A DNA stretch of 64,000 bases from Salinisphaera sp. LB1. Lineage in GTDB: Bacteria > Pseudomonadota > Gammaproteobacteria > Nevskiales > Salinisphaeraceae. This document shows positions 5,837-20,073 of this stretch, one piece after another. Location: NCBI RefSeq assembly GCF_003177035.1, contig NZ_CP029488.1, positions 3,664,501 through 3,728,500 of the forward strand, written 5' to 3'. Each line of letters begins with the position of its first letter. Position 1 is the stretch's first letter. Made by a program: the position numbers and the translations under genes. The notes beneath the pieces were generated by a model. That model was not told where the DNA came from, did no database searches, and saw only the letters and a program-made list of their open reading frames with translations.

Positions 5837-5858
5837 GTCGGGTTACGGCCTGCGGCCT
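5837..5858. repeat. Left half of a REP interrupted by IS copy 1
   Basis: The hairpin is cut after GGCCTGCGGCCT; the other half resumes at 7375 as AACCCGACC. The two halves differ from the usual repeat by matching changes (CGGGTTA against TAACCCG instead of CGGCTTA against TAAGCCG), so the stem would still pair. Confidence 0.9.
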
Positions 5859-6160
5859 GATATGGATTGACCTGTCAACTATGACTTATCACTTATTCAT
5901 AATCGGTGTGCTGGCGCATGCCCTTGGAACAGAACACGGGCGGCGGATGCGACGGTAGATCACTCTGATATACGTGGATTGGGTACCGACCTGACATGTC
6001 TTCGTCGCGGAGCTGCCTTGCTCTAAGTGCGGGGATCAGCGGACCGAGTCCGCTGCCCCATAGGCCGGCCAAGGATTCTCCAACCGGGCCGATCGTGTTC
6101 TGATCCAAGGGCATGCATGACCCTGTCCTCCTGCTGGGCGATTAGAATGGCGCGTACGGC
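5859..6160 (-). ncRNA. IS 3' non-coding region, candidate target-guiding RNA
   Basis: Downstream of the transposase stop there is no credible gene but much structure. An inverted repeat of 23 bp with one mismatch (arms 5916-5938 and 6094-6116, GCATGCCCTTGGA-type) encloses 155 nt. Inside is a hairpin at 6031-6059 (AGCGGAC/GTCCGCT core extended by GGGG/CCCC). At 5965-5981 the plus strand reads CTGATA-tacg-TGGATTG, the element's own right end (CTGATATGGATTG, 5857-5869) with 4 extra bases, and next to it CCGACCT (5986-5992) matches the REP head. IS1111-group elements are known to encode their guide RNA (seekRNA/bridge RNA) downstream of the transposase; that this region is such an RNA is inference, and its ends are not known. 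Confidence 0.5.
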
Positions 6161-7279
6161 TTAAGCGACCGCCGCCGTGTTCACCGGAACGTCACAGGCG
6201 ATCGCCCAGATGAAACCCGCCAGTTCACGCGCCACCGCGGTCGTCGCTTGGGGCGTGTTCTTACCCGCACCGATCAGATGTCGATAACGGCCGCATAACC
6301 GTTTCTGAGCCTGCCAGGCGATCGCCTGCACGTGAGGGCTCGTTTGTTCGGCTCGGCGCTGTATCACCGCACTCTTGCGCGCGGGGAAACGATACGCCCA
6401 GGCGGCTTCGACGAGCACACGCCGCACATGACCGTTGCCGGTCTTGGTGATGCCGCCTTGACGCGTCGCGCCCCCGCTCGAGTGCTCGCTGGGAACCAGG
6501 CCGAGATAGGCCATCAATTGACGCGGTGAATCAAAGCGGGTGATATCGCCCAACTCGGCCAGCACGGTCATGGCGGTGATCAGCGAGATGCCGCGCAGGG
6601 CCATGAGCGCTTCGACGACCGGGCGCATGGACCAGGTCTCGCAGGCCCGGCGCATCTGTTCGATCAGCGCCGCCACGCGACGCTGCGCGTCGTGCACGGT
6701 ATCGATATATTCCGTCAAAACGATCTGCTGCACGGGCGTGGCCATGCGGAGTCGCTCGATCCAGCGAAAATGCGCCTGGGTCCATCGACTCTTGCCGTCA
6801 TACACGTGACCGTGACGCAGCAGGAACGCGCCCAGGCGCTGACGCGCCACGCGCTCGATCGCTTTGAGATCTTCGCGCGCCCGAGTGAGATCGCGCATGG
6901 CTTCCTGCTCTTGATCGGGCACCCAAACCGGGGTGAGCTCACCGGCGCGATGGAGCCGTGCCAGACTCAGCGCATCCCGCCGGTCGGTCTTCACCCGATC
7001 CGTGGCGCGGCGCGGCATCAAACCGGGGGCCACCACGATACAGTCGTGGCCCATCTGCGTGATCTGACGATGCAGGCCGTAGCCGCACGGCCCGGCTTCG
7101 TAGCACACGCCCAGCACTTCACCATCCGGCGACAGCTTGTGCATCAGGCGCTTGATCGCCGTGGCCGTATTGGCAATCTCGCCGCGGTAAACCGGCGCGG
7201 CCCGACCCGCAGCTGCCACAGCCACCGCAATCGTGGCCTTGTGCACATCCAATCCGACATAAACGCTAAACTCTGACAT
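6161..7279 (-). CDS. IS110/IS1111-family transposase (DEDD recombinase), copy 1
   Basis: Catalyses excision and site-specific insertion of its element, guided by an element-encoded RNA in characterised relatives. The 372-residue protein has an N-terminal RuvC-like DEDD domain starting with YVGLDVHKATIAVAV, a middle coiled-coil region, and a C-terminal Tnp20 domain with LRGISLITAMTVLAELGD, YLGLVPSEHSSGG (containing the serine region) and TKTGNGHVRRVLVEAAW. Start ATG at 7279 has AGGAGG 9 nt upstream. The protein translated from the copy at 15801-16919 is the same, indicating recent transposition or gene conversion. The frame is intact, so the element may be active. Confidence 0.97.
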   Translation of the reverse strand: MSEFSVYVGLDVHKATIAVAVAAAGRAAPVYRGEIANTATAIKRLMHKLSPDGEVLGVCYEAGPCGYGLHRQITQMGHDCIVVAPGLMPRRATDRVKTDRRDALSLARLHRAGELTPVWVPDQEQEAMRDLTRAREDLKAIERVARQRLGAFLLRHGHVYDGKSRWTQAHFRWIERLRMATPVQQIVLTEYIDTVHDAQRRVAALIEQMRRACETWSMRPVVEALMALRGISLITAMTVLAELGDITRFDSPRQLMAYLGLVPSEHSSGGATRQGGITKTGNGHVRRVLVEAAWAYRFPARKSAVIQRRAEQTSPHVQAIAWQAQKRLCGRYRHLIGAGKNTPQATTAVARELAGFIWAIACDVPVNTAAVA

Positions 7280-7317
7280 GACCTGCCCTCCTCAATGTGG
7301 CTCTGCTTGAGAATGAT

Positions 7318-7354
7318 CCCGTCCTCAACGTAACCCACGAGCGTTGAGGACGGG
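7318..7354. other. Left-end hairpin of IS copy 1
   Basis: Perfect 13-bp inverted repeat CCCGTCCTCAACG/CGTTGAGGACGGG with an 11-nt loop, between the transposase start and the left inverted repeat. It abuts the inverted repeat directly. Role unknown; it could be a recombinase-binding or transcription-damping structure. The same hairpin is at 16958-16994 in copy 2. Confidence 0.8.
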
Positions 7355-7374
7355 CAGGTCAATCCATGGTGTCT

Positions 7375-7439
7375 AACCCGACCTACGCGCCTTGTTTCGG
7401 CTGTTGTGACTCGGATTTATCGGAGGCGTCATCCGGCAT
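7375..7439. repeat. Right half of interrupted REP plus following inverted REP
   Basis: Continuation of the unit broken by IS copy 1: AACCCGACCTACGCGCC, a spacer, and a degenerate right hairpin ending ATCCGGCAT. A spurious open frame runs through it into the photolyase gene. Confidence 0.8.
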
Positions 7440-15498: not shown

Positions 15499-15800
15499 GA
15501 TATGGATTGACCTGTCAACTATGACTTATCACTTATTCATAATCGGTGTGCTGGCGCATGCCCTTGGAACAGAACACGGGCGGCGGATGCGACGGTAGAT
15601 CACTCTGATATACGTGGATTGGGTACCGACCTGACATGTCTTCGTCGCGGAGCTGCCTTGCTCTAAGTGCGGGGATCAGCGGACCGAGTCCGCTGCCCCA
15701 TAGGCCGGCCAAGGATTCTCCAACCGGGCCGATCGTGTTCTGATCCAAGGGCATGCATGACCCTGTCCTCCTGCTGGGCGATTAGAATGGCGCGTACGGC
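15499..15800 (-). ncRNA. IS copy 2 3' non-coding region, candidate target-guiding RNA
   Basis: Same sequence as in copy 1: 23-bp inverted repeat at 15556-15578 and 15734-15756, internal hairpin at 15671-15699, right-end mimic at 15605-15621 and REP-like CCGACCT at 15626-15632. RNA function is inferred. Confidence 0.5.
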
Positions 15801-16919
15801 TTAAGCGACCGCCGCCGTGTTCACCGGAACGTCACAGGCGATCGCCCAGATGAAACCCGCCAGTTCACGCGCCACCGCGGTCGTCGCTTGGGGCGTGTTC
15901 TTACCCGCACCGATCAGATGTCGATAACGGCCGCATAACCGTTTCTGAGCCTGCCAGGCGATCGCCTGCACGTGAGGGCTCGTTTGTTCGGCTCGGCGCT
16001 GTATCACCGCACTCTTGCGCGCGGGGAAACGATACGCCCAGGCGGCTTCGACGAGCACACGCCGCACATGACCGTTGCCGGTCTTGGTGATGCCGCCTTG
16101 ACGCGTCGCGCCCCCGCTCGAGTGCTCGCTGGGAACCAGGCCGAGATAGGCCATCAATTGACGCGGTGAATCAAAGCGGGTGATATCGCCCAACTCGGCC
16201 AGCACGGTCATGGCGGTGATCAGCGAGATGCCGCGCAGGGCCATGAGCGCTTCGACGACCGGGCGCATGGACCAGGTCTCGCAGGCCCGGCGCATCTGTT
16301 CGATCAGCGCCGCCACGCGACGCTGCGCGTCGTGCACGGTATCGATATATTCCGTCAAAACGATCTGCTGCACGGGCGTGGCCATGCGGAGTCGCTCGAT
16401 CCAGCGAAAATGCGCCTGGGTCCATCGACTCTTGCCGTCATACACGTGACCGTGACGCAGCAGGAACGCGCCCAGGCGCTGACGCGCCACGCGCTCGATC
16501 GCTTTGAGATCTTCGCGCGCCCGAGTGAGATCGCGCATGGCTTCCTGCTCTTGATCGGGCACCCAAACCGGGGTGAGCTCACCGGCGCGATGGAGCCGTG
16601 CCAGACTCAGCGCATCCCGCCGGTCGGTCTTCACCCGATCCGTGGCGCGGCGCGGCATCAAACCGGGGGCCACCACGATACAGTCGTGGCCCATCTGCGT
16701 GATCTGACGATGCAGGCCGTAGCCGCACGGCCCGGCTTCGTAGCACACGCCCAGCACTTCACCATCCGGCGACAGCTTGTGCATCAGGCGCTTGATCGCC
16801 GTGGCCGTATTGGCAATCTCGCCGCGGTAAACCGGCGCGGCCCGACCCGCAGCTGCCACAGCCACCGCAATCGTGGCCTTGTGCACATCCAATCCGACAT
16901 AAACGCTAAACTCTGACAT
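15801..16919 (-). CDS. IS110/IS1111-family transposase (DEDD recombinase), copy 2
   Basis: Same 372-residue translation as the copy at 6161-7279, including the N-terminal GLDVHK motif, Tnp20 domain and AGGAGG ribosome-binding site. The lack of any amino-acid difference over the whole length points to recent movement within this chromosome. The frame is complete. Confidence 0.97.
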   Translation of the reverse strand: MSEFSVYVGLDVHKATIAVAVAAAGRAAPVYRGEIANTATAIKRLMHKLSPDGEVLGVCYEAGPCGYGLHRQITQMGHDCIVVAPGLMPRRATDRVKTDRRDALSLARLHRAGELTPVWVPDQEQEAMRDLTRAREDLKAIERVARQRLGAFLLRHGHVYDGKSRWTQAHFRWIERLRMATPVQQIVLTEYIDTVHDAQRRVAALIEQMRRACETWSMRPVVEALMALRGISLITAMTVLAELGDITRFDSPRQLMAYLGLVPSEHSSGGATRQGGITKTGNGHVRRVLVEAAWAYRFPARKSAVIQRRAEQTSPHVQAIAWQAQKRLCGRYRHLIGAGKNTPQATTAVARELAGFIWAIACDVPVNTAAVA

Positions 16920-17014
16920 GACCTGCCCTCCTCAATGTGGCTCTGCTTGAGAATGATCCCGTCCTCAACGTAACCCACGAGCGTTGAGGACGGGCAGGTC
17001 AATCCATGGTGTCT

Positions 17015-19831: not shown

Positions 19832-19937
19832 GGCCCGCGCCAGCGACACCCCGGCGCCCGAGTCCGCCGCTACCGCTGCTCCCTTCCGGGCCTGACGGGG
19901 TTTACGGCATATCGTCGCGGGGGCACCGACGCGGGCC
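19832..19937 (-). ncRNA. ffs: 4.5S RNA (signal recognition particle RNA, small bacterial type)
   Basis: RNA of the SRP that binds Ffh and targets membrane proteins. On the minus strand the ends GGCCCGCG and CGCGGGCC pair to close a single long hairpin of about 106 nt. The apical domain IV has the conserved core CAGGCCCGGAAGGGAGCAGC with the GGAA tetraloop and the asymmetric loop bases. Placement just upstream of dnaX is common in gammaproteobacteria. End points are set by the terminal pairing and could be off by a few bases. Confidence 0.95.
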
Positions 19938-19982
19938 ACCATTGCAAACGAGTGCTTCGGTTTTCGCGCCGACGCACTTTAT

Positions 19983-20073
<91 letters not shown>

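Follow-up and report, generated by a model that had tools for sequence, protein, structure and literature searches.

A predicted REP-targeting guide RNA of the seekRNA/bridge RNA kind downstream of the transposase gene in an IS1111-group insertion sequence of Salinisphaera sp. LB1

Overview

The window analyzed here, a stretch of 64,000 nucleotides from Salinisphaera sp. LB1, contains two copies of an insertion sequence (IS), and the region downstream of its transposase gene very probably encodes a seekRNA/bridge RNA of the IS1111 group, judging from comparative sequence evidence. The structure of the RNA was established from covariation and its target guides from their change together with the targets, and empty target sites were found in the genome. 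A sequence-only reading had proposed that the IS carries a REP-targeting guide of this type in its 3′ region, and the proposal is strongly supported by the covarying stem, by guides that change with their targets, and by 19 unoccupied REP heads. The RNA adds to a kind that is already published.

The insertion sequence and its ends

The element and its immediate surroundings are as follows.

5859..7374, minus strand: whole IS, 1516 bp, with limits set by the IS1111 rule (7-nt left and 3-nt right extensions)
6161..7279, minus strand: transposase, 372 aa, with the Pfam domains DEDD_Tnp_IS110 and Transposase_20
5862..5874, no strand assigned: subterminal inverted repeat on the transposase-3′ side, ATGGATTGACCTG, a 13-nt perfect match
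7355..7367, no strand assigned: subterminal inverted repeat on the transposase-5′ side, CAGGTCAATCCAT
5837..5858, minus strand: right half of the interrupted REP target, from flank reading
7375..7386, minus strand: left half of the interrupted REP target, from flank reading
15499..17014, minus strand: second IS copy, with 0 differences in 1516 positions, in another REP about 9.6 kb away

A DEDD transposase with the PF01548 and PF02371 domains, a feature of IS1111, was identified with Pfam and NCBIfam, and scored 275 bits against the NCBIfam model NF033542, “IS110 family RNA-guided transposase” (cut-off 140). Residues D11, E61, D99, and D102, which we take to be the DEDD residues, were invariant in all 10 aligned transposases. 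The similarity of the protein to that of IS621 was weak (E = 5.8e-4) and that to ISCro4 slightly better (E = 4.2e-8). The subterminal inverted repeats are identical at 13 of 13 positions, the IS1111 range being 11–13 bp. The limits of the IS were set by locating its ends, applying the IS1111 rule that the ends extend 7 nt (left) and 3 nt (right) beyond the subterminal repeats (PMC11187229), and comparing the flanks with unoccupied REP heads; the extensions are AGACACC on the left and ATC on the right. When the limits are set in this way, both copies are flanked by GTAGGTCGG[G/C]TT + AGGCCG, which matches the 19 unoccupied genomic sites, and no target bases are added at the junctions.

Non-coding DNA amounts to 302 nt downstream of the transposase gene (5859–6160) and 95 nt upstream (7280–7374), the long downstream region being another IS1111 feature. 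IS1111 elements are described as forming a promoter at their circle junction (PMC11187229); the one predicted here (TTGACA, 17 nt, CACCAT) is weak, with three of six matches to TATAAT in its −10 element; in 18 of the 19 other distinct junctions of relatives, the −10 element matched at four or five of six positions (best of three spacings). Elsewhere in the window, at 19835–20073, the minus strand carries a small SRP RNA gene next to one for tRNA-Ser (GGA).

Occupied and unoccupied REP targets

Both copies of the IS break their REP at one and the same position. Read in the transposase sense, the left and right flanks are GTAGGTCGGGTT and AGGCCGCAGGCCGTAACCCGAC for copy 1, and GTAGGTCGGCTT and AGGCCGCAGGCCGTAAGCCGAC for copy 2. 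The REP halves on either side of each copy are complementary to each other (GGGTTA with TAACCC and GGCTTA with TAAGCC), so the two copies inserted independently, each into a different REP variant. In the 4.14-Mb genome, a single contig, 19 GTAGGTCGGNTTAGGCCG sites are unoccupied, and the reversed control pattern has no occurrence. STTAGGCCG, the 9-mer specified by both guides together, occurs 32 times genome-wide vs. 313 times for its reversed control, and is therefore rare in this genome; 19 of its 32 occurrences fall in unoccupied REP heads. A pattern for the complete REP, built on a presumed spacing, gave no match in the genome, probably because that spacing was wrong, and the shorter pattern was used instead.

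Structure and relatives of the RNA

Three structural units are distinguished in the downstream region.

5916..6116, minus strand: structured guide RNA (seekRNA/bridge RNA, as predicted from fold and covariation), with outer stem arms at 6094–6116 and 5916–5938
6009..6084, minus strand: target-loop domain, 76 nt, with a GGAG...CTCC stem, both target guides, and the inner hairpin
6031..6059, minus strand: inner hairpin between the target guides, from fold and covariation (helix 5)

The sequence-only reading had placed the sequence features exactly: the inverted repeat at 5916–5938/6094–6116, the hairpin at 6031–6059, CTGATA-tacg-TGGATTG at 5965–5981, CCGACCT at 5986–5992, and TAGGCCG at 6061–6067. 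It had given no strand; we assign the guide RNA to a minus-strand transcript because the transposase gene runs on that strand. The inverted repeat spans 23 bp with one mismatch, extends to 29 nt at 90% identity, and leaves 155 nt between its 23-bp arms. The minus strand of 5911–6121 folded at −101.1 kcal/mol vs. −72.95 ± 4.93 in 200 shuffles, none of which reached as low a value (z = −5.71). Together with the covariation of the stem in 18 relatives, this confirms a structured domain beyond chance, as had been claimed.

The relatives were gathered in several ways. A single scan of genome contigs yielded 40 loci. A covariance model, R1, with a core of 133 positions, was built from 24 sequences; it had matches in 2 of 17 genomes at family level, 21 of 369 at class level, and 15 of 398 at phylum level. 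These counts include the genome itself each time, and stricter filters were applied in the class and phylum searches. When 97 sources were searched with R1, leaving out the duplicates from the same genome (L001–L008, L053, and L054), 90 matches were obtained. Searches within the orders of two relatives, which reached two and five genomes, added no new loci. Two alignments were selected by eye for alignability from 28 distinct RNA candidates: A1, with 24 sequences, and A2, with 18.

In the 18 sequences of A2, the named structure (the outer stem, target-loop stems, and inner hairpin) was paired in 88.1% of the cells, and double-sided changes were found in 27 of the 36 tested pairs. For the outer stem, whose covariation across relatives was a check that the sequence-only reading had put forward, double-sided changes occurred in 19 of 20 pairs. 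In total, 112 cells carried double-sided changes vs. 39.2 ± 5.3 in shuffled alignments (0 of 500 as high) and at most 33 in slid controls; because RNAalifold derived the structure from A2 itself, the latter comparison is tilted in its favor over the slid versions. The pairs that RNAalifold proposed for the donor loop hardly vary and are therefore neither backed nor opposed by covariation. With the Rfam 15 covariance models, no match was obtained inside 5916–6116 at E up to 1 and none at the gathering score; the search of the locus returned two chance hits only, far below the gathering score and both outside the RNA.

The target guides change with the targets

The two guides proposed for the target loop are listed below.

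6061..6067, minus strand: right target guide CGGCCTA, complement of the target TAGGCCG (permutation test)
6023..6029, minus strand: left target guide CACTTAG, matching the target through CTTAG or TTAG (permutation test, signal at −2 to −3)

A structured and covarying RNA would fit equally well with a 3′ UTR or stability element of the transposase mRNA that has no guide role, in which case the target matches would be chance and the REP specificity would reside in the protein. What makes this very improbable is that, across 31 distinct guides, right guide and right flank change in step to a degree that none of 20,000 permutations reached. In this comparison, the guides were read from model columns, a fixed expression located the right end of each element, the left end was taken from the inverted repeat, and the guide itself was not used in placing the ends. 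The test kept 58 of the 90 matches, with 54 rows distinct in guide and right flank. Of the other 32, the right guide was not aligned over 9 nt in 18, the fixed expression gave no right end in 13, and the flank was shorter than 9 nt in one; some of these right ends are visible by eye (e.g., in L028), yet were kept out of the test.

Over positions +3 to +7, the right guide matched its own right flank at 3.61 of 5 positions on average vs. 1.47 ± 0.21 when the pairs were re-dealt (maximum, 2.33; 0 of 20,000 as high). The own matches at positions +3 to +8 were 0.80, 0.82, 0.78, 0.76, 0.45, and 0.36, and those of mismatched pairs 0.26 to 0.32, from which we conclude that the right guide reads to about +6. 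TAGGCCG thus holds as a target guide, as the sequence-only reading had it, and the comparison of guides with targets in relatives that it had called for comes out in favor of guidance. Eight rows scored low: L040, L046, L062, and one row of L064 scored 0 of 5; L059 and one row of L050 scored 1; and L024 and L034 scored 2. By eye, L040 and L046 seem to be out of register in the alignment, and the flank of the low-scoring L064 row is the start of a second RNA copy. At L064, positions 1501–1944 hold two guide RNA copies 283 nt apart, the second RNA lying directly after the right end of the first.

The left target guide, which was absent from the sequence-only reading, was compared in 30 rows (29 distinct, with 19 distinct guides). 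Its own matches at −1 to −6 were 0.84, 0.79, 0.49, 0.30, 0.21, and 0.37, and those of mismatched pairs 0.63, 0.38, 0.24, 0.19, 0.20, and 0.37. At −2 to −3, the score was 1.28 of 2 vs. 0.66 (0 of 20,000 permutations), and at −4 to −6 it was not significant (3415 of 20,000 permutations). In the sequence comparison, the left guide thus follows the left flank across about 3 nt.

CGGCCTA lies 5′ of CACTTAG, so that the complement of the top strand precedes the match to the bottom strand, which is the order of IS1111; as in the target loop of bridge RNAs (PMC11208160), the left and right guides address opposite strands and share the core. The core was also compared among relatives, using 55 distinct rows. 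All 29 right guides ending in CTA had AG at the right junction; of the 21 ending in TTA, 17 had AA, three AG, and one GG. In the TTA rows with a readable left end, the left junction was AG in 11 of 11. These counts indicate that the second core base at the right junction goes with the right guide, with AG kept at the left junction, and the second core bases of target and donor therefore seem able to differ. The TTA/AA pattern was observed in L085, L096, L099, L101, L103, L105, L042, L024, L060, and L075.

The proposed donor loop

Four segments were assigned to the second loop.

5965..5972, minus strand: right-end donor guide UAUAUCAG, as suggested by comparison with relatives, resembling the right end CATATC/AG
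5973..5982, minus strand: CCAATCCACG, probable opposite arm of a donor-loop hairpin (containing the TGGATTG of the sequence-only reading)
5986..5992, minus strand: AGGTCGG, probable donor-loop hairpin arm and not a target guide
5993..5997, minus strand: candidate left-end donor guide AUGUC, proposed from the sequence

TATATCAG (5965–5972) resembles the right end of the IS, ..CATATC/AG. Among eight relatives that depart from TATC, the RNA and the end agree in six (L009, L026, L028, L035, L038, and L074) and disagree in two (L065 and L071), a count in which L028 comes from outside the kept set and several relatives are close kin, so that it offers support for a right-end donor guide rather than proof. 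ATGTC (AUGUC in the RNA) could pair with the GACA of the left IS end. In L037 (3672–3824) and L098 (1501–1651), the donor loop is replaced by unrelated sequence on the 5′ side of TATCAG; the TATCAG part itself is retained, as are the target guides.

The sequence-only reading had interpreted CTGATA-tacg-TGGATTG as a mimic of the IS end. Support is limited to its CTGATATA part (5965–5972), since in relatives the TGGATTG part and the element end vary independently of each other: most aligned relatives have CAACCCG there, and their ends read CAATCCA or CAATACA. The same reading took CCGACCT, beside the mimic, as the guide to the REP head. CCGACCT does match the REP head over 7 bases, both in the RNA and in the left flank, but this exact layout is now highly unlikely. 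AGGTCGG was found in 14 of the 58 kept RNAs. The left flank could be read for nine of these; it contains GGTCGG in the two window copies and lacks it in the other seven. AGGTCGG is also identical in a sister element that sits outside REPs. The same segment is thus combined with different targets in relatives, an outcome that had been named as evidence against guidance and that applies to CCGACCT. Nor do donor and target mimicry lie side by side, as had been suggested, since the target guides and donor guides occupy two separate loops. In the seekRNA/bridge RNA reading that we prefer, AGGTCGG probably forms one arm of the donor-loop hairpin. Among 43 distinct 3′ halves, 13 of the 14 with GCGG have CCGC or CTGC, and 10 of the 14 with GGUCGG have CCAC; 15 of the 43 fit neither 5′-arm class.

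A coding function for the region is the least probable alternative: a 73-aa minus-strand open reading frame exists at 5893–6114 and is open in the sister element too, but stops interrupt it in the remaining 16 of the 18 aligned sequences (five of these with another open frame there), the changes in the stem are compensatory, and the alignment contains single-base gaps.

A sister element with different guides in the same genome

The genome contains three copies of the sister element (L049, L051, and L052), whose flanks are non-REP by inspection. Its transposase is 78% identical to that of the window element over 375 columns, and its DNA 76%. The sister right guide, GACCCTA, predicts TAGGGTC, and the actual right flanks are AGGGTC, AGTGTC, and AGGGCC. 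The left guide ends in ACTAG and the left flanks end in GCT, CCT, and AAT, which gives left matches of 2, 2, and 1 nt plus the core. When the 134-nt core RNAs of the sister and window elements (5947–6080) were compared, 20 of 55 positions differed in the target half vs. 1 of 79 in the donor half. The likeness of the donor halves reflects either strong constraint, as the conservation in A1 suggests, or exchange or gene conversion between the elements, and the two are not separable here.

One speculative extension, which we consider possible but on balance doubtful, is that IS1111 guide RNAs evolve by module, with the donor half shared or converted within a genome and the target loop replaced, so that REP-seeking and non-REP-seeking elements would be interconverted by the target loop alone. 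It would also hold that target and donor cores need not match, since in some relatives only the right guide follows the second core base (AA) and the left junction keeps the donor AG. Two resident elements with different guides amount to a natural reprogramming experiment inside one genome.

Proposed mechanism and comparison with known systems

By analogy with ISEc11 and ISPa11 (PMC11187229), the RNA would be transcribed in the transposase sense, from the minus strand, and would fold into a long outer stem carrying two loops. In the target loop, the guides would flank the inner hairpin and overlap at the core AG; in the donor loop, TATATCAG would match the right IS end and ATGTC might pair with the left end. 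The guides appear to be ordered alike in both loops, the 5′ guide pairing with the top strand to the right of the core and the 3′ guide matching the left side. The transposase may then unite the excised circle (..TATC-AG-ACACC..) and the REP (..STT-AG-GCCG..) on the RNA, the circle and the RNA–protein complex being presumed by the same analogy. Strand exchange at AG would yield the observed junctions STT/AGACACC ... ATATC/AGGCCG.

In the present case, both target guides of an IS1111 guide RNA were located from sequence only and tied statistically to their targets in many relatives. The covariance model and the table of guides and flanks can be used to find related elements and to read their guides, and such elements are candidates for programmable DNA insertion.

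Several published systems resemble this one. In PMC11187229, a transposase-bound RNA was reported for ISPa11, an IS1111 element of Pseudomonas aeruginosa that targets REPs, as the window element does; in the IS1111 family as described there, RNA and transposase co-purify, and both circle formation and transposition depend on the RNA. ISPa11 and ISEc11 share with the window element a DEDD transposase, subterminal repeats with 7-nt and 3-nt extensions, a seekRNA from the 3′ non-coding region, and a complement of the top strand 5′ of the match to the bottom strand. In contrast, the element, host, and REP sequence differ, and RNA binding and transposition are experimental there and predicted here. 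The seekRNAs described there measure 70–100 nt, with long forms of 145–170 nt; in the window element, the target-loop domain is predicted to span 76 nt and the whole stem domain 201 nt.

PMC11208160 had earlier predicted target and donor loops in IS1111 RNAs, and the scheme given there for IS110, with both loops and overlapping core pairing, fits the layout found here. The bridge RNAs of IS621 and the IS110 group have, likewise, two loops, opposite-strand target guides that overlap at a dinucleotide core, and a second loop for the donor, and IS621 also inserts into REPs. However, in the IS110 group, the RNA lies 5′ of the gene and the guide order is reversed, according to PMC11208160 and PMC11187229; because its RNA is downstream of the gene, the window IS does not belong to the IS110 group in the narrow sense. 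Finally, ISPa11, ISPpu9, ISPpu10, and ISRm19 appear in PMC1525189 as members of the IS110 family, broadly defined, that interrupt REPs at a fixed position, as the window element does, although they were described before RNA guidance was known, in other hosts and with other REPs.
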